From Acidobacteriaceae bacterium (lineage in GTDB: Bacteria; Acidobacteriota; Terriglobia; Terriglobales; Acidobacteriaceae): a DNA stretch of 64,000 nt. Shown here piece by piece: positions 3,550 to 61,859 of the stretch. Under the pieces are notes generated by a model. It saw only the letters and a program-made list of their open reading frames with translations. It was not told where the DNA came from and did no database searches. Position 1 is the first letter of the stretch, and each line of letters opens with the position of its first letter. The stretch covers positions 1-64,000 of the forward strand of contig JASHPJ010000078.1 in the NCBI GenBank assembly GCA_030038195.1, read 5' to 3'. The position numbers were made by a program, and so were the translations under genes.

Positions 3550-3626
3550 ACGCCCCGGCGCGCTTGTGTTGCTCAGATCGCTCTTCAGCAGCGTGAGTTA
3601 GCTGCAAGCGCAGCTGCGATTCCGCG

Positions 3627-4235
3627 CTACAGCATTTTGTTATCCGCGCTAACCAGCACAATGTCGGCAGCCGCTCGGCTCCAGCCGATGCGCAGGTCCT
3701 TCACACTATGCAGCGCAAAGGCTCCGCTTTCTCCTCGCGGAGCAGTGATGGCGAAGAAGTCCACCCGGTCCACCGTATTGAGCGAGAAGGACGGGGCGCG
3801 TCAGGGGTCGTATTCGCAATCTCGACGTGGCTCATTTCCAGGCGATTGATGTGGCGCAGGAAAAAGCCCGAAGTCGGCGTCGAGCCGAACATTTCAGGCT
3901 CGGGATATTTTTTGACGTCCTCCGGCGGTCGGATCTGCGCGTCAGCGGCGTTGCCTCCCCCCACCGTCTCAATGTAGATGTTGGAAAGCTTTACACTCTC
4001 AATCGGTGCATCGGGAATGGCGCTGAGGATGGAGCAGACCGCCCGCGGCGCGTTGTGGCACACCAGTTGTCGATCAGGATGCGCTTCATACTGCCCATTC
4101 TGGTGGTTTCTTTCGGCCCGCGCAATCGCGCGCCCAGGCGTAGGAAAATAGGCCCCGTGCCCAGATCGCGCATAGTGGTGTTGGTGATGGCCACGTCCTC
4201 CAACAGTCCTCCGTCGACCGATTCCAGAGCGTAGC
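3627..4235 (-). pseudogene. Decayed GH28 polygalacturonase-like gene (3' part, frameshifted)
   Basis: Recognisable GH28 pectinase sequence is spread over three reading frames of the - strand. One frame (about 4235-4075) gives YALESVDGGLLEDVAI, then TMRDLGTGPIFLRLGAR and RILIDN. A second frame (about 4072-3800) gives LVCHNAPRAVCSILSAI, IESVKLSNIYIETVGGG and GFFLRHINRLEMSHVEIA. A third frame gives LNTVDRVDFFAITAPRG down to a stop at 3627-3629. Frameshifts therefore lie near 4072 and 3797. Upstream of about 4235 nothing resembling GH28 is seen, so the 5' half, including most of the catalytic region, is also lost. The gene is not functional. It belongs with the carbohydrate enzymes to its left and abuts the tRNA fragment and recombination-like repeats at 4385-4592. 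Confidence 0.75.
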
Positions 4236-6001: not shown

Positions 6002-7855
6002 TTAGATCATCGACATCTGGACGCGGTAAGCCTCCGACCATTCCCTCCTCATTGTGTCGATCAGTTTGTGAGCATCCTCATTCGTCTTCGAGAGGCGGCT
6101 TTGCGTCCGCGCGAGAGACAACAGCAGGAGGTCCAACGCGACAGTCGGGCCATGCTGTTCTGAGGAGGCTACTACGAAGTCGTCATCGTCGTCCGACACG
6201 GCCGGTATGCCGATCTTGCTCACCGGCTCATAAAGTGCCGTGAAGAAGGCGTGTGCAGTGTTGATGGTCAGAATGACACGCCCGAATTGATGTGACACGT
6301 CGTAGAAAGGCCAGTACGGGTCATGTTTGAACGCGATGATATATTGCGAGTTCTTGATCCGCTCAAAGGCCTGTTCGTCTGTTTCATCGTCCCGTTTGAG
6401 CGTTACTGCCAACCCCCGCAGATTCGCATCCACTTGCTGCTGCTCTTCTTCGGTGAGTGGCTCAAGTGGTTTTGCTTGGAAGGCATCTGCCTCGCTCGCT
6501 TTCAACTCGCCGGTACTCGGCCTACCTGCCCCCCGTCGCGCGTTCTGAGCAGCCTGAAACTGGCGAATCTCGTCATTCATGGTCGTGATATCGTCACCAA
6601 TTGCTTCTTTGATCGCTTCCTCGACGTAACCCTTCAGCCGCACGCCTTGCTTGTTTGATGCCACGCCAAAGGCTTCATCGAGTGTTCCGGGGAAATCGAT
6701 CTGAACGCGATACCAATTCGTGACGCTGTGCCGCGTTGTGATCTTCGGCAAGCTGCCGGCGAAAACTTCTCGGTCGTTTCGCAGCATGGAAACGGTCAGG
6801 CCGTCGAAGATGCGAAGGTCGTTCTTTTGTGTTTTGCGGGGCAAGGTTGACCATTCCTCAATAGGCAACTTGTATATCTTGATCTGAATTTGTGCCGTTG
6901 CCGCCTCATTTTCATTGAGCCTGATGTTGACCGGCTTCGAGATTACTAGGCGGCTTTGACGGGGCATACTCTCATCCAGAAATCGTGTGTGTCGCGCGTT
7001 CGCCATCGAGTATGTAGGATCGAAAGCCTCTACCAGACGGTTGTTTACGTAGAGTTTGAGGCCGGACGCAATCTGTCGGCGATAGACGCGAGCCATCTCC
7101 TTCATGGCATGTTCGACTAGCGTCTTGGCCTTCGCATAAGTGAGACGGTCGCATTCTGGCATATAGACGAGCGTTCCAGACCTGCCGAGTTTTTCGACAA
7201 GATCGTTTTCATCTTCGGCCACGCGCGTTTGCTCAGCATGATCGGACGGAAAGATCATCCAAGACGTGAACAGGGATGAGAGCTCATACGAAAACTCGCT
7301 GTGCAGCGTCGGGTCCGGCAACTCGACCAGGTTGCTTTTGTCTCGGCCAATCGCCTCGATGTCGAGCGTCATGCTGTAAATAGCGCGTGGTTCCTGCCAC
7401 GAATAAAGCTCCATTACCGGACTTAGGCTAAGGGCCGCCGTCTTCATGCCCATGCCGAAGCGTCCGATGCCGTCGCGGTTTCCAAAATTAAGCGAGCCGC
7501 CGAAGGCCGTCGCTGCCTTTAGCACTGCCGGGGCCATACCCTTGCCGTTGTCGTAAACGGCAACATCAATAGCTCCGCCTTCCTTCCTCTTGTTTTGCCG
7601 GAAGTAAATGCGAATTTCACTGGCGCCGGCTTGGTAGGCGTTATCGACGTGTTCGCAGAGGGCGGATGTGGTGTGGTTATAGCCAACGTCCCGTAGTGAC
7701 TGAATCAGCGTCTGAGCGAAGAAGAGCGGAACCGTTGCGCTCTCCTTAATCATTCGGTTCATCACGGCACGGCCGCCGCGTGGAGCATCCGCACTCCAAT
7801 TTTCTGTAATCTGCTCGGCCGGCTCACGGCCGATTGTTTCGGTTACTGTTTCCAT
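6002..7855 (-). CDS. GHKL-family (MORC/Hsp90-like) ATPase of the integrated element
   Basis: This large protein (617 residues from this start) carries the Bergerat ATP-binding fold. Counting from the upstream in-frame ATG at 7861, the N box is EHVDNAYQAG with catalytic Glu70 and Asn74, the G1 box is DNGKGM (104-109) and the G2 box is GRFGMGMK (133-140). The remaining 400 residues form a transducer-like region and a C-terminus with no domain I recognise, including an acidic DDDDD stretch near residue 565. The ATG at 7853-7855 has AGGAG 8 bases upstream, better spaced than the ATG at 7861. Such ATPases include MutL, topoisomerase and MORC-like proteins, and prokaryotic MORC-like members often sit beside restriction or defence genes. 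The role here is unknown. Confidence 0.75.
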   Translation of the reverse strand: METVTETIGREPAEQITENWSADAPRGGRAVMNRMIKESATVPLFFAQTLIQSLRDVGYNHTTSALCEHVDNAYQAGASEIRIYFRQNKRKEGGAIDVAVYDNGKGMAPAVLKAATAFGGSLNFGNRDGIGRFGMGMKTAALSLSPVMELYSWQEPRAIYSMTLDIEAIGRDKSNLVELPDPTLHSEFSYELSSLFTSWMIFPSDHAEQTRVAEDENDLVEKLGRSGTLVYMPECDRLTYAKAKTLVEHAMKEMARVYRRQIASGLKLYVNNRLVEAFDPTYSMANARHTRFLDESMPRQSRLVISKPVNIRLNENEAATAQIQIKIYKLPIEEWSTLPRKTQKNDLRIFDGLTVSMLRNDREVFAGSLPKITTRHSVTNWYRVQIDFPGTLDEAFGVASNKQGVRLKGYVEEAIKEAIGDDITTMNDEIRQFQAAQNARRGAGRPSTGELKASEADAFQAKPLEPLTEEEQQQVDANLRGLAVTLKRDDETDEQAFERIKNSQYIIAFKHDPYWPFYDVSHQFGRVILTINTAHAFFTALYEPVSKIGIPAVSDDDDDFVVASSEQHGPTVALDLLLLSLARTQSRLSKTNEDAHKLIDTMRREWSEAYRVQMSMI

Positions 7856-7861
7856 GGTCAT

Positions 7862-8033
7862 TTCTCCTTTGTTTTTACGCCATCTGTTGGCGTGGTTGAG
7901 AGATGCTTCTGCCTATAAGGAGATGGCCCGCCCAAATCGTTACATGGGACGGCTAATTTATTATGCCGTCGATTTTCTATGAGGCAAATTACAGGGCTTT
8001 GAATGACTAGAGGAGTGAAACTCTAGGTTCTCA
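7862..8033. promoter_or_regulatory. Control region of the GHKL ATPase gene with two inverted repeats
   Basis: ACGCCA-TCTGT-TGGCGT lies immediately before the ribosome binding site (about 7876-7893). GACGGC (7948-7953) faces GCCGTC (7965-7970) around an AT-rich 11-base centre. Both are candidate operators for the ATPase transcript. I could not fix a convincing -35/-10 pair. Confidence 0.4.
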
Positions 8034-8168
8034 GCATTCCCCGGATGGCTGGAGCATAGCCGAGGCCGGGCCGGAGTCAAGGCCGCGCTGAAGCACGCCG
8101 CTTCGCGGTCGTAAAGCCTTGACACCGGCCCTCTCGCCTCGGCACATCATCCAATATCCGGGGAATGC
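8034..8168. repeat. Giant imperfect hairpin (135 bp, about 36 paired bases)
   Basis: Three nested pairs of perfect arms are present. GCATTCCCCGGAT (8034-8046) pairs with ATCCGGGGAATGC (8156-8168). GCCGAGGC (8059-8066) pairs with GCCTCGGC (8136-8143). GGGCCGG-A-GTCAAGGC (8068-8083) pairs with GCCTTGAC-A-CCGGCCC (8116-8131), with one A/A mismatch. A 12 x 12 internal loop separates the first two pairs, and a small CCGC-TTC-GCGG stem sits in the apical loop. No reading frame is supported here. It is far longer than a terminator and could be a structured RNA, a MITE-like palindrome or a recombination substrate. Confidence 0.8.
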
Positions 8169-8184
8169 CAGTTTCTCTGAACGG

Positions 8185-8415
8185 CTATTCGGAAGCAGAG
8201 GCGATCCGCTCGACCACAGACAGCTTATGCGCAGGCGAGAGATGGCTGTAGCGGGCAGACATAGTGATCGACTTGTGGCCTGCCGCTTCCTGAATCTCTT
8301 TGACGGACGCACCCGCCATTGCCAGCCAGGAGCAAAATGTGTGCCGGTTTGAGTGCCAGACATATCCGGTGATGCCAGCCTCAGCGAGGCAGGGATGGAA
8401 CCAAGAGCGCGTATT
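8185..8415 (-). pseudogene. C-terminal fragment of a tyrosine recombinase (phage-type integrase)
   Basis: On the - strand, 76 residues run from a stop near 8418 to TAG at 8185-8187 without a usable start. The fragment reads RSWFHPCLAEAGITGYVW, then HSNRHTFCSWLAMAG, EAAGHKSITMSARYSHL and a short tail. This keeps the HxxR box, the downstream His and the nucleophilic Tyr of the catalytic domain. The N-terminal arm-binding and core-binding domains and the first catalytic Arg are missing. It is adjacent to an IS481-type fragment and probably was truncated by that insertion. It is the likely source of mobility for the 4.4-8.6 kb element. Confidence 0.8.
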
Positions 8416-8638
8416 TCAAACAGTGGCGCGCAATCATAAGCTCGATCGGCAACCGATACGGACGCAGGCTGGCGGGCTGGTGGTTCGATGACGCGGCTTT
8501 TACCTACTGCCCTTTCAATCCTGACTGGCAAGCAATGACGGCTGCAGCCGCCTTCAACGTGCTGCCCCGCTGCACAACCATTTTTGCCATTTGCTCTCGA
8601 CTGTGAACCGTCAGTCGGGCATTCTTGTGATAGTCCAT
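8416..8638 (-). pseudogene. IS481-family transposase, N-terminal remnant
   Basis: The ATG at 8636-8638 begins MDYHKNARLTVHSREQM, then VVQRGSTLKAAAA. This matches the start of IS481-type transposases, whose N-terminal helix-turn-helix usually begins with HKNARLTxxGRE. Similarity fades after about 36 residues and the frame is closed at 8504. Weak proline/arginine-rich similarity (SSNHQPASLRPYRLP) may continue in another frame towards 8420. No DDE catalytic domain remains, so the element is dead. Confidence 0.6.
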
Positions 8639-9070
8639 TCGATTTCCTTTCAGGGAAACTTCAGGTTGGGTTACCTTCAGCTTCTCCGATCCGGATCGAA
8701 TGGACAACCTGTTGAGACTTCACAGCTAGTGTGGTGAATCAGAAGTTCGTAGCATAAGTCGAAACCCCGAACCGCAGGTTCCGCCACGGCGGATCTTTGA
8801 CCCACCACGGCGGGTCTTCGACCTTCGACTCGTTTTGGCGCAAAACGCGCCAAAATTCGCTCAGGAGGACAGCTTATTTGTAGTACAAACTTCAGACTCA
8901 GGACACTAGTGCAGTTCCACAGTTCGTGCAGCCCTTTCCAGCTTCAACCGAGGTGGCTTTTTCCTGTTGAAAAAGCCACTTGGCTTCTCGGCTCCGGGGT
9001 ACAGCAACTGTGGAACCGCTGTACAAGCTGTACAATCTGTTCACCGGTGTGGAAGGCCCGGCCTGAACAA
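8639..9070. other. Intergenic region with a cluster of palindromes upstream of fdhD
   Basis: No gene is supported. It holds GAACC-GCA-GGTTC (8769-8781), TCCGCC-AC-GGCGGA (8780-8793), a second CCACCACGGCGGG copy just after it, TTTTGGCGC facing GCGCCAAAA (about 8834-8856) and the 11-bp hairpin at 8953-8979. The fdhD promoter should lie in the last 150 bases, but I see no strong consensus. Confidence 0.5.
8953..8979. repeat. Interspersed palindrome GTGGCTTTTTC...GAAAAAGCCAC
   Basis: This is a perfect 11-bp inverted repeat with a 5-base loop (CTGTT). A closely similar palindrome lies at 19033-19056 and a related one at 26313-26329, each in a 5' intergenic region, suggesting a dispersed REP-like family. 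Confidence 0.6.
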
Positions 9071-9940
9071 ATGCGAGAAACCTACAGTCCCGCACAAGAA
9101 GATTTCAGCACCGCACCCGAGCACAGTCTGCAACTGACCCAGATTCTGGAATGGAACGATGGCATGGCGTTGCCGCATGAGGATGTGCTGGCGGCGGAGG
9201 AGCCGCTAGAGGTTCGGGTGGGCGATGCTGCGCGTGGTTTCGCCTCCATCAGTGTAACCATGCGGACACCGGGACACGATGCGGAACTGGCGGCAGGATT
9301 CCTGTGGACCGAGGGCGTTATTGGGAGCCTAGACGAGATTGGTGAAATTAGGGTCCAGGCGACATCGGCGGCCGGCAAAAAGAATGTCATAACGATTGAG
9401 CTGCATGACAGCGGCTTTGAGCCGTCGCAGTTGCGGCGCAACTTCTTTGCGGCCTCCGGCTGCGGCATCTGCGGCAAGGCGTCAATCGAGGCGATTCGCC
9501 AGCGTGGGCTGCGCGCGCCGAATCCTGAGTTCCGTTTCAATCCGAAGCTGCTCTGCCGGTTGCCGGACAGGCTGCGCGCGGCGCAGACGGTCTTCAGCCA
9601 CACGGGCGGGCTGCATGCCGCCGCGCTGTTCGACGCGGCCGGAGAACTGCTTGTACTTCGCGAAGACATTGGCCGGCATAATGCAGTAGACAAGGTTGCC
9701 GGCTGGGCGCTGTTGGAGAGGCGCCTGCCGCTGGCTGAGCATGTGCTGCTGGTCAGCGGTAGGGGTGGCTTCGAGATCGCGCAGAAGTCGCTGGCGATGG
9801 GGCTTCCGGTCCTGGCCACGGTTTCTGCACCTTCCAGCCTGGCTGTGCAACTGGCCCGGGAACTGGGCCTGACACTGGCCGGCTTCCTGCGCGGGAGCCG
9901 TTTTGTGATCTATGCAGGACAGTCCCGGCTGATTTTCTAA
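9071..9940 (+). CDS. fdhD: FdhD sulfurtransferase for formate dehydrogenase
   Basis: FdhD carries sulfur from the IscS cysteine desulfurase to the molybdenum cofactor of formate dehydrogenase and is required for that enzyme's activity. The conserved CGICGK motif gives Cys131 and Cys134, the sulfur-carrying pair. Other family marks are VTMRTPGHDAELAAGFLWTE, FSHTGGLHAAALF and EDIGRHNAVDKVAGW. The ATG at 9071 is preferred because the in-frame extension to 8909 is low-complexity, Cys/Trp-rich and crosses the hairpin at 8953. The product of 289 residues matches the family length. It is followed by the formate dehydrogenase gene after 111 bases, consistent with a maturation operon. Confidence 0.92.
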   Translation: MRETYSPAQEDFSTAPEHSLQLTQILEWNDGMALPHEDVLAAEEPLEVRVGDAARGFASISVTMRTPGHDAELAAGFLWTEGVIGSLDEIGEIRVQATSAAGKKNVITIELHDSGFEPSQLRRNFFAASGCGICGKASIEAIRQRGLRAPNPEFRFNPKLLCRLPDRLRAAQTVFSHTGGLHAAALFDAAGELLVLREDIGRHNAVDKVAGWALLERRLPLAEHVLLVSGRGGFEIAQKSLAMGLPVLATVSAPSSLAVQLARELGLTLAGFLRGSRFVIYAGQSRLIF

Positions 9941-10051: not shown

Positions 10052-13000
10052 ATGTCTTCGACAACTCTTGCCGCAGCTTTCATCCTCATCAACGGTAAAG
10101 CCCAGGCAATCACCGCGGGCGAACTGCTGATCGACGCCATCAATCGTTCGGAAACGCCGCTGCCGCAGGTGTGCTTTCATCCGCAGCTTGGACCCATACA
10201 GACCTGCGACACCTGCATGGTGGAAGTGGACGGCAAGCTGGTGCGGGCCTGTGGCACCAGGGCTGAGAACGGGATGCGTGTGGCCACGGCAACCGGGCGC
10301 GCGGTGGCGGCGCAACACGAGGCCTTCGACCGCATCCTGAGCAACCACATGTTGTATTGCACCGTATGCGACAACAACAACCACAACTGCACGGTGCACA
10401 ACACGACCGCACTGCTCAAAGTGGAGCACCAGTCCATTCCCTACAAGCCCAAGCCGTATGAGAAGGACATGTCGAACCCCTTCTATCGGTATGACCCGGA
10501 CCAGTGCATCCTCTGCGGGCGCTGCGTCCAGGCATGCCAGAACGTGGAGGTGAACGAGACATTATCCATCGGCTGGGAGCTCGAGCATCCGCGCGTGCTG
10601 TGGGATGGCGGCAAGCCCATCAACGAGTCGAGCTGCGTCTCTTGCGGACATTGCGTCACGGTGTGCCCGTGCAACGCGCTGATGGAGAAAAACATGCTGG
10701 GACGGGCGGGCTACTTTACCAGCCTTCCGGAATCCGCTCTGCAGCAGATGATCGACGTGGTGAAGGGCATCGAGCCGGAGCTGGGCTATGGCTCGATCCT
10801 GCAGGTTTCCGAAGTCGAGGCAGCCATGCGCGCGAGCCGCGTGAAGCAGACCAAGACGGTGTGCACGTACTGTGGCGTCGGATGCAGCTTCGACATCTGG
10901 ACGCAGGAGAACGGCTCGAATCCATCGGAGCGGCGCATCCTGAAAGTGGAGCCGCTGAACGGCGCGGCCAACGGAATCTCGACCTGCATCAAGGGCAAGT
11001 TCGGCTGGGAGTACGTAAACAGCCTGGAGCGGCTGACTAGGCCCTTGGTTCGCGAGCACAATGCGAACGGCGACTGCTTCCGCGAGACTTCCTGGGAAGA
11101 GGCGCTGACGCTGGTGGCCGGCAAGCTCGCTGAGATCAGGCAAGAGCACGGTCCGGATGCACTGGCATTCATCTCCTCCTCGAAGTGCACGAATGAAGAG
11201 AGCTATCTGATGCAGAAGCTGGCGCGCGCGGTGATCGGGACCAACAACATGGACAACTGCTCGCGCTATTGCCAGGCGCCGGCGACGACCGGGCTCTTTC
11301 GCACAGTGGGTTACGGTGGCGATGCCGGATCGATCTCCGACATCGAGAAAGCCGGGCTGGTGCTCATCATCGGCAGCAACACCGCGGAGAGCCATCCGGT
11401 TCTGGCCACGCGTGTCAAGCGTGCGCACAAGCTGCATGGGCAAAAGCTCATCGTTGCCGATCTGCGCGAGCACGAGATGGCGCGCCGTGCAGACCTGTTC
11501 CTGCGCCCCAAGCCGGGCACAGACATGCTGTGGCTTTCGGCCGTGACCCGCTATATCCTGGACAACAACCTGGCCAGAATGGAGTTTCTCGACAAGTGGG
11601 TCAACGGCGTCGAGGCGTACCGGAAGAGCCTTGAGCCATTCACGATGGAGATGGCCAGCGAACGCTGCGGCATCCCGGTAGAGATGCTCAGGCAGGTGGC
11701 GCACATGGTGGCGGAGGCCGACGGCGTCTGCGTGCTATGGGCCATGGGTGTTACGCAGCACGTCATGGGCTCGGATACTTCGACGGCTATCTCCAATCTG
11801 CTGCTCACGACGGGCAATTACATGCGCCCCGGCGCCGGAGCCTACCCGCTGCGCGGACATAACAACGTGCAGGGCGCCAGCGATCACGGCGCAATGCCGA
11901 ACTATTTTCCCGGCTACCAGAAGGTGGATGATCCGGAGATACGTGCAAAATTCGAAAAAGCCTGGGGCGTGACGCTGCCGTCTATTCCCGGCCTCAACAA
12001 TCACCAGATGATCGACGCCATCCACGAGGGCAAGCTGAAGGCGATGTATCTTTTTGGCGAAGAGATGAGCCTGGTGGACTCGAACGCCAACTTTGTCGCC
12101 AGCGCGCTGGCGAAGCTCGACTTCTTCGTGATGCAGGAGGTCTTTTTCTCCGAGACCTGCCGCTTTGCCGACGTGATCCTGCCAGCCAGTCCGAGCCTGG
12201 AAAAAGAAGGCACCTTTACCAGCACCGAGCGTCGCATCCAGCGTCTCTACCAGGTCTTTGAGCCGCTGGGCGACAGCCGTCCGGACTGGCGCATCATCCA
12301 GGACATCGCCAACCACATGGGCGCGAACTGGAACTATCCCAGCCCCAGGGAAATCTACGATGAGATTGCTTCGCTCACGCCGTTGATGGCGGGCGTGACC
12401 TATGAGCGGCTGGAGGGTTACAAGACGCTGCAGTGGCCTGTAGCTGCCGACGGCACCGATCAGCCGCTGCTGTACACCAAAGGCTTCAATTTTCCCGACG
12501 GCAAGGCGCGGCTCTATCCGCTGCAATGGACCGAGCCGACCAATCAGCCTGATGCCGAGTATGATCTGCATCTGAACAACGGCCGCCTGCTCGAACACTT
12601 CCACGAAGGCAACATGACGTACCGCACGGAAGGAATTCGCGAGAAGACACCCTGCGTATTTGTGGAAGTATCGCCCACACTGGCCGCGGAGCGCGGCATC
12701 GCTTCAGGCAGTTGGGTGCAGTTGACTTCTCCATATGGCCGGGTGCGCGTGCAGGCCGTGGTTACCGATCGCGTGCATGGCAACGAGCTCTATATGCCGA
12801 TGAACTCTCGCCAGGACTTCGATGAGGCCGTCAATCGGCTTACCAGCAGCTACACGGACAAGGCGACCGACACGCCCGCCTACAAGGAGACGTCTGTGCG
12901 CATGAAAGTGCTGCCGGCGGCCGGTGACGCGCCACCGGCCAGCCCTCTGCCGAAGATCAATCCGCGTTTTGGCCACCCCACGCCGCAGCAGGGCGTGGAG

Positions 13001-60677: not shown

Positions 60678-61859
60678 TTACAAAAGAATATGCTCGGCCT
60701 TGATCTCGCGCTCGCCGCCCACCAGGATCGTGGCGCGCTCGATCGCGTTGCGTAGCTCGCGGATGTTGCCCGGCCAGCTATGCTGCGCCAGAATCTGCAG
60801 CGCCTCGCGGCCGAGCGCCGCACCGGGCAGAAATCTGGCCGCAAACGATCGCGCCAGCTCGTCCAGGTCGTCCATGCGCTCGCGCAGCGGCGGCAGATGA
60901 ATCGGGAAGACGGCTAGGCGATAGTAGAGGTCTTCGCGAAACTGCCCGTTGGCGACCTGCTTTTTGAGATCGGCATTGGTGGCGGCGATCACGCGGACAT
61001 CGACCTTGAGATTGTCGTTGCCGCCCAGCCGTTGCACTTCACCCTGTTCGAGAAAGCGCAGAATCTTGCTCTGCAGCGAAAGCGGCATGTCGCCGATTTC
61101 ATCCAGGAACAGCGTGCCGCCATGCGCTGCATGAATGCGCCCGATGCGCGACTGCATGGCTCCGGTGAACGAGCCCTTCGTGTAGCCGAACAGTTCGGCT
61201 TCAAGCAGCGTCTCCGGAATGGCCGAACAGTTCACCACGATGAAGGGCTGGTTGCGGCGCGGGCTGATCAGGTGAATCTCCTGCGCCAGCAGGTCCTTGC
61301 CGGTGCCGCTCTCGCCGGTGACGAGAATTGTGGTGTTGCGCGCGGCCACCATGCGTGTCACGGCCCAGATGCGCTGCATTGATTCGGCGTTGCCGATCAT
61401 GCCGCGCAGCTTGACGCCGTGGCGCTCGGGCGCAACCTGCGCCGCCTCGGCAGCCACCGGCGCAAAGCTTGCGCTGCGCGCGGCTCCGCCGGTGTTGATC
61501 ACATGGACGAGCTTGACAGAAACCGGCGTGGGCGAAGCGCTGCCCACCAGCAGTTGCCCGGTCTGCGAATTCAGCATCAGCACCTGGGTATTGGGAAAGC
61601 GGTGGCCCACGATGGCACGAAATCCCTCCGGCTCCAGGTCGGGCAGCATGGGGTCGAGCAGCAGCACGCCGTCGCCGGACTCATGCCGGCGCAGCAGCTC
61701 GAGCGCGCCGGCACCGCTGCTTGCCTGAAGGACCGACCAGCGCTCCGGCGCCAGCTTTTCTTCGAGATCCTGCCGTAACTGGGCATTTGGGCTGACAACG
61801 ATGACATTCAACGGATAACGATCTTCTAGGCGTTCCGACTGCACGACGGCTATTCCCAT
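60678..61859 (-). CDS. Sigma54-dependent activator without a DNA-binding domain (FleQ/FlgR-like)
   Basis: This 393-residue activator has an N-terminal receiver-like domain that lacks the acidic pair (VVSPN in place of VDDE), although an Asp69 remains in LLLDPMLP. The AAA+ domain has Walker A GESGTGKD (182-189), GYTKGSFTGAM giving GSFTGA (229-234) instead of GAFTGA, and FREDLYYRLAVFPIHLPPLR. The protein stops at EIKAEHILL, just after the ATPase C-subdomain, so the usual Fis HTH is missing. Helicobacter FlgR similarly lacks one. The ATG at 61857-61859 has AGGA 5 bases upstream. It lies between the degenerate kinase and the PAS kinase. Confidence 0.85.
   Translation of the reverse strand: MGIAVVQSERLEDRYPLNVIVVSPNAQLRQDLEEKLAPERWSVLQASSGAGALELLRRHESGDGVLLLDPMLPDLEPEGFRAIVGHRFPNTQVLMLNSQTGQLLVGSASPTPVSVKLVHVINTGGAARSASFAPVAAEAAQVAPERHGVKLRGMIGNAESMQRIWAVTRMVAARNTTILVTGESGTGKDLLAQEIHLISPRRNQPFIVVNCSAIPETLLEAELFGYTKGSFTGAMQSRIGRIHAAHGGTLFLDEIGDMPLSLQSKILRFLEQGEVQRLGGNDNLKVDVRVIAATNADLKKQVANGQFREDLYYRLAVFPIHLPPLRERMDDLDELARSFAARFLPGAALGREALQILAQHSWPGNIRELRNAIERATILVGGEREIKAEHILL

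Follow-up and report, generated by a model that had tools for sequence, protein, structure and literature searches.

The window analysed here comprises 64,000 nt of an Acidobacteriaceae bacterium (assembly GCA_030038195.1, contig JASHPJ010000078.1, positions 1–64,000 of the forward strand) and contains a very large palindrome at 8034–8168, between a GHKL ATPase gene on the left and a tyrosine-integrase remnant on the right. The question raised by this locus is what such a hairpin does there. Both the palindrome and its neighbours had been described in an earlier note and were recovered in our analysis, the former by fold statistics and by a family alignment. The RNA minimum free energy of 8020–8185 was −90.9 kcal/mol (z = −7.2), a value reached by none of 200 shuffled sequences; the bottom strand folded as DNA gave z = −9.4 relative to shuffles. 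The hairpin is neither a chance product nor a decayed duplication.

The whole conserved unit occupies positions 8032–8170 (covariance-model match G000:C6:8032-8170, E = 1e-27, and alignment); it measures 139 bases in the window copy and 138 bases in the family. Stem I is formed by a left arm at 8034–8047 (plus strand; family consensus TGACATTCCCCGGATA) and a right arm at 8155–8168 (plus strand; TATCCGGGGAATGTCA), both placed by alignment and pair counts. It is followed by an internal loop with a left side at 8048–8058 and a right side at 8144–8154, and by stem II, in which GCCGAGGC (8059–8066, plus strand) pairs with GCCTCGGC (8136–8143, plus strand). The nested arms and the symmetric loop proposed earlier were therefore present, but the loop measures about 11 × 11 and not 12 × 12 bases. 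The single small apical stem was not retained: the family alignment places a three-way junction with two GC-rich mini-hairpins at the apex, within the core GTCAAGG ... CCTTGAC (8076–8123, plus strand, exact pattern match). The proportion of paired alignment cells was 94.3% in helix 1 (stem I), 96.4% in helix 2 (stem II), and 99.2% in helices 4 and 5 (the core with its apical junction). A second core-like match in the window, at 61356–61415, was rejected as a chance occurrence; it lies inside a sigma-54-type response-regulator gene and has a fold z of −1.9.

Integrating and conjugation-type mobile elements of soil Acidobacteria carry this hairpin as a conserved module of 138 bases. The same genome contains one further copy (G000:C16, 84% identical) and one half copy, and many genomes of the same bacterial family contain full-length copies with about 75–90% identity. 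Among 397 genomes of the order, a covariance model built from 31 copies detected the hairpin in 80, with 1–7 copies per genome. When genomes were drawn from across the phylum, strong matches over the full length fell within the same family, and a few weak relatives were found elsewhere; distant matches in other families kept the core and lacked the −10 element spaced by 16 nt that is described below. BLASTN of the hairpin region against phage and plasmid collections gave no match, nor did a viral scan with the promoter motif. In whole-collection scans for the 16-mer end of the hairpin, nearly all matches outside Acidobacteria proved to be chance matches by BLAST, the exceptions being a metagenome-assembled genome labelled Formivibrio (L154, possibly misbinned) and the viral-labelled contig L200. 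The latter (IMG/VR, 10,253 bases) has the hairpin near its end, at 10099–10237, and encodes a tyrosine integrase, a capsid-like protein, and a DNA methyltransferase; it is possibly an integrated satellite.

The alignment of the copies is paired in 94.9% of its cells, and this value falls to about 40% when the partner is shifted by one base. Compensatory double changes were counted in 70 cells, compared with 24.8 ± 3.3 in shuffled alignments (none of 500 reached the observed number), the covariation score was 0.145 versus 0.054 in shuffles, and 46 pairs covary. The search for homologous hairpins with compensatory changes in relatives, suggested earlier as a check, was thus positive. G–T and A–C mismatches numbered 24 and 36, respectively; this absence of a wobble preference on the strand tested does not discriminate RNA from DNA.

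For 77 of 84 copies, a gene for a tyrosine integrase (PF00589) or for a MobF (TrwC) relaxase lies within 5 kb of the hairpin. The relaxase is located within this distance in 54 of the 84, the others being integrase elements, and its 3′ end lies within 60 bp of the hairpin in 32; for contrast, of 60 genomes from the family, only 14 contain TrwC. Three arrangements were recognized. Class 1 has the order tRNA-Leu, an att region of about 150 bp, 0–5 kb of cargo, the hairpin, and a 336-aa tyrosine integrase, with 15–19 bp between the hairpin and the integrase stop codon. Class 2 comprises tRNA-Glu or tRNA-Met, an integrase, a small HTH_17 gene, the hairpin, and a MobF relaxase. In class 3, a MobF relaxase (TrwC, PF08751) is followed after 1–18 bp by the hairpin and then by variable cargo. 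The att ends of classes 1 and 2 are at the tRNAs, distant from the hairpin, and DNA homology between loci often stops exactly at one hairpin end. Genes classified by PADLOC as defence-type (HEPN-type, PDC-S31, PDC-M05A) occur as cargo beside the copies, and no reverse transcriptase was seen among the recurring neighbour gene families, in agreement with the earlier view that a retron is not supported. The adjacent genes are oriented in both directions, so the hairpin is not accounted for by any one gene downstream of it.

On the relaxase tree, possession of the hairpin requires 4 changes versus 15 with shuffled labels. It accompanies 14 of 14 relaxases of lineage Y, although these rows had been retrieved by way of the hairpin, as well as the majority of one clade of lineage X, and is absent from a third MobF group of 16 relaxases. 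Lineages X and Y are separated by very long branches and share the same hairpin core. In the reverse test, none of the 19 readable flanks of MobF relaxases had a hairpin, so the hairpin is a lineage-specific trait. Some loci have more complex arrangements. In L044 (7258–7396 and 8508–8581) and L046 (260–400 and about 1180–1217), a cargo gene separates a complete hairpin from a shortened or half one, an arrangement that would result from cargo entry by recombination between hairpin copies. In L083, a toxin-antitoxin-like gene pair is enclosed by two hairpins (1638–1775 and 3625–3767), both of which adjoin relaxase 3′ sequence; this locus was interpreted as a tandem accretion of element pieces.

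In the window, the sequence at 8188–8478 (minus strand) corresponds to a degraded C-terminal part of a 336-aa-type tyrosine integrase with an in-frame stop (tblastn, 75% identity), the intact relatives of which have their stop codon 15–19 bp from the hairpin. The hairpin and this remnant assign the window copy to class 1, with the GHKL gene as cargo and with no tRNA found within the window. The earlier placement of the hairpin in an integrated element is supported. The element is decayed, which makes present activity of this copy uncertain; it may be a relic. The GHKL ATPase gene (6002–7861, minus strand; PF13589, E = 3e-20; PADLOC MzaB, 6.5e-13) lies outside the conserved module. It is one of many different cargo neighbours, and the functional link to the hairpin that had been considered is consequently unsupported. 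Together with this ATPase, whose similarity to the MzaB defence model is weak, the segment 4948–7861 encodes a DUF3892 protein and an unannotated protein of 151 aa, all on the minus strand; it is possibly an uncharacterised defence operon. On the other side of the hairpin, 8725–9024 contains dispersed repeats (parts 26–210 and 208–324 of the query 8700–9300) that match at least 14 places in the same genome and many more in further genomes of the genus; no relation of these repeats to the hairpin was seen. Because of the repetitive nature of this segment, a search for the empty site of the window insertion gave nothing.

In nearly every copy, one arm carries TTGACN-N16-TAYGCT, a sigma-70-like promoter, in which the −35 element lies within the stem and the −10 element runs into the conserved internal loop. 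In the window, the −35-like TTGACT is located at 8075–8080 on the minus strand, within paired stem III, and the −10 hexamer TATGCT at 8058–8053 on the same strand, in the left side of the loop. An independent consensus scan of the window reported the same site as the family motif, namely TTGACT-16-TATGCT on the minus strand at 8080–8053. The opposite arm has TTGACA, followed in most copies at a distance of 20 nt, past a bulge of about 4 bases, by a −10-like hexamer; in the window copy this second, weaker hexamer is CATCAT, in the right side of the loop on the plus strand.

The promoter rule was derived from 39 founding copies after inspection of the alignment and was then tested on 49 new copies. 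TTGACN-N16-TAnnnT was obeyed by 41 of these, with diverged stems, and several of the remainder had the 16-nt spacing intact, with CATGCT or TGCGCT. The new copies included subfamilies with different stem sequences (CTGCCTGCCCCGGAT with GCGCGGGCG; CTACCTGCCCCGGAT with GCCCAACC; and GCACATTCCCCACAT). The spacer is fixed in length at 16 nt and variable in sequence, with compensation. Four copies with flipped asymmetry have the same motif with the same spacing on the other arm. In predicted DNA folds, all 82 copies had a base-paired −35, and the unpaired probability of the −10 averaged only about 0.5, being highest at its downstream end; the bases that follow also lie in the loop. Motif and predicted folds thus agree in that the folded strand rebuilds a −35 and a −10 element at promoter spacing, as expected of a single-stranded DNA promoter. 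TAYGCT, however, agrees with only 3–4 of the 6 consensus bases of a −10 element, and TTGAC is also retained in related palindromes that have no clear −10, so that it may be conserved for another reason. With respect to the relaxase gene, the motif points one way in lineage X and the opposite way in lineage Y.

The explanation that we favour, with moderate confidence, is that the hairpin serves as an RNA polymerase start site activated by single-stranded DNA, on MobF-type mobilizable or conjugative elements and on integrase-only elements of Acidobacteriaceae. Transfer would make the element DNA single-stranded, and the strand could fold on itself. The stem would then rebuild a double-stranded, TTGACA-like −35 with the fixed 16-nt spacer, and the internal loop would offer an already melted −10 (TAYGCT) within a bubble, after which comes the duplex of stem I, thus mimicking an open complex. 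Host RNA polymerase is predicted to bind the folded strand and to copy stem I into a short RNA; the right arm of stem I (8155–8168) would provide the first bases copied, if the start point is placed correctly. This RNA may prime complementary-strand synthesis, as at a single-strand origin, which seems likelier for the relaxase-linked copies, and/or may be an early transcript in the recipient of the Frpo/ssi type, which seems likelier for the palindromes upstream of ardC discussed below. More tentatively, the T-shaped hairpin, with −10-like elements in both bubble strands, could be usable for either transferred strand. The structure with its covariation, the two hexamers a fixed distance apart, and the association with relaxase and integrase genes are observed features; folding in vivo, polymerase binding, and a role in priming or transcription are what we infer from them.

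A host factor should be the recogniser, since the same core occurs in two distant relaxase lineages and in relaxase-free integrase elements; a shared host factor is likewise made likelier by the range of accompanying enzymes, namely several distinct integrases and two relaxases that differ greatly. For the hairpin family, complementary-strand priming is favoured over a dedicated early-gene promoter because the adjoining genes point both ways. The structured RNA, the MITE-like palindrome, and the substrate of a recombinase or of the ATPase, which had been offered as possibilities in the earlier note, are not the best fit, since the constant part across the diverged copies is the promoter motif. 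About 90 natural variants are available, with covariation, fixed −35/−10 geometry, and subfamilies with different stems, which makes the idea of an open-complex mimic directly testable. Our literature search on conjugation in Acidobacteriota found little, and the covariance model provides a tool to find transferable elements, including relaxase-free ones, in this phylum.

Two alternatives were the most serious. An origin of transfer or another relaxase binding site, which integrase-only elements would carry for mobilization in trans, is unlikely. Such a site would agree with the position of the hairpin next to MobF relaxase 3′ ends, with the common occurrence of long palindromes at oriT, and with its presence on relaxase-free elements. 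Two very distant relaxase lineages, however, are not expected to share a recognition site with the same core and spacing, a third MobF group has no hairpin, and the promoter motif is left unexplained. Inverted repeats of oriT are, moreover, usually short and located 5′ of the relaxase gene. An ordinary duplex promoter or regulatory site, reading leftward from 8080 toward the GHKL gene with the palindrome serving a DNA-binding regulator, appears somewhat more doubtful. The consensus was found by an independent scan, and the motif points into the HTH–integrase genes in class 2 and toward the GHKL gene, 190 bp off, in the window; in the relaxase-first class, however, the same direction would be antisense into the relaxase end, and a duplex promoter has no need of 46 covarying pairs or of an unpaired loop conserved precisely at the −10.

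The exact ends of inter-locus homology at the hairpin, the variable cargo, the frequently adjoining integrase, and the cargo enclosed by full and reduced copies in L044 and L046 could also be read as signs of a recombination site or module joint, i.e., an attC-like folded site or an att site for exchange between backbone and cargo. This reading is improbable. The att ends of classes 1 and 2 lie at tRNAs away from the hairpin, the copies occur with several different integrases and also with relaxases that have no integrase nearby, and homologous recombination between copies would give the same pattern. Integron attC sites are likewise long imperfect palindromes close behind stop codons and are functional as folded single-stranded DNA. 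They conserve little sequence, unlike the hairpin, which is conserved throughout and has a promoter motif inside; no integron integrase was seen, and no RYYYAAC/GTTRRRY ends were detected in it by eye.

A structured RNA or a bidirectional terminator or insulator at the 3′ ends of relaxase and integrase genes is a still poorer candidate. It would account for the many copies located 1–30 bp behind stop codons and for the strong covariation. No terminator-like site and no T tract were found, however, at 7860–8400, and 138 bases far exceed a terminator, in line with the earlier view of the hairpin as too long and too ordered for one. Also, the window has no Rfam match at gathering score, A–C mismatches outnumber G–T mismatches on the strand examined, and the promoter spacing would be unexplained. 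A MITE-like mobile palindrome without function for the host element is very improbable, given that, despite sharp ends, near-perfect terminal inverted repeats, and occurrence in different element types and orientations, the copies are few per genome, stand beside a relaxase or integrase in the great majority of cases, are retained along two deep MobF lineages and integrase modules and not scattered, and no transposase with matching ends was noticed.

The proposed start site activated by single-stranded DNA has several known counterparts. Frpo/ssi single-stranded DNA promoters (F plasmid, ColIb-P9) were reportedly described by Masai and Arai in 1997. The hairpin resembles these in the folded single strand with −35 and −10 elements, in the location on mobile conjugative DNA, and in that its related ardC set precedes an anti-restriction gene. 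It differs from them in having no detectable similarity to known families (no Rfam or plasmid match), in lying mostly behind a relaxase or integrase gene and lacking a constant gene downstream, and in the T-shaped apex with −10-like elements in both bubble strands. Frpo has been described as a folded single strand that forms the −35/−10 geometry of a promoter (PMC9849209, PMC11541004), and single-strand origins that depend on RNA polymerase act in the same manner (PMC4595007). The ICEBs1 sso1 is a proven RNA-polymerase-dependent single-strand origin located immediately downstream of the relaxase gene (PMC4595007). Similarly, the hairpin region lies directly behind the relaxase gene of an integrative element and is predicted to act only when single-stranded, and a relaxase-bearing element, which passes through single-stranded DNA, was found for 54 of 84 copies. 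The sso1, however, consists of three stem-loops and resembles the single-strand origins of Gram-positive rolling-circle plasmids, unlike the one long hairpin of Acidobacteriota elements with MobF relaxases. At the complementary-strand origin of M13, RNA polymerase synthesizes a primer on a hairpin. The likeness to the proposed mechanism lies in a primer made by the sigma-70 polymerase on folded single-stranded DNA; the M13 origin, mentioned in PMC7948647, is a phage origin with another sequence and layout.

The GTCAAGG ... CCTTGAC core recurs in other long palindromes of Acidobacteriota. The bare core pattern showed no enrichment over a reversed control. In combination with a stability filter, it was found 6 times in 93 kb of ardC loci versus once in 138 kb of control loci, and a shuffled core gave no hits. 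Of 30 ardC loci fetched independently, 6 have a palindrome of about 200 bp directly upstream of the ArdC N-domain gene, always on its 5′ side; further ones occur in L359 (1304–1358) and L363 (1501–1554). The loci with such palindromes include L370, L371, L373, L380, and L383. Most of this set has a conserved, AT-rich CATAAA, separated by N18 from TTGACG and mostly unpaired in an internal loop, as a −10 match weaker than that of the main hairpin family. The arm with CATAAA in most cases directs away from ardC in the duplex and into ardC from the folded single strand.

These palindromes are candidate single-strand promoters in their own right, and their independent placement at ardC is a prediction of the single-strand-promoter reading. 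Expression of the ardC of R388 is required in the recipient and not in the donor (PMC7213743). With regard to a leading-region location, the ardC-linked relatives stand 5′ of ardC, and the neighbours of the hairpin family itself point in both directions. We propose, tentatively, that the hairpins could form a new family of single-strand-activated start sites, standard in mobilizable elements of Acidobacteriota, with a sister group controlling ardC. A related palindrome was also observed in L354 (1501–1553), upstream of a HamA-type gene (PF08878, 1850–2842). Additionally, three near-identical long palindromes in a genome of another family (L283–L285, genome G682) have a GTCAAGG-like core followed by GGAGGTGACCATG and apparently stand in front of genes.
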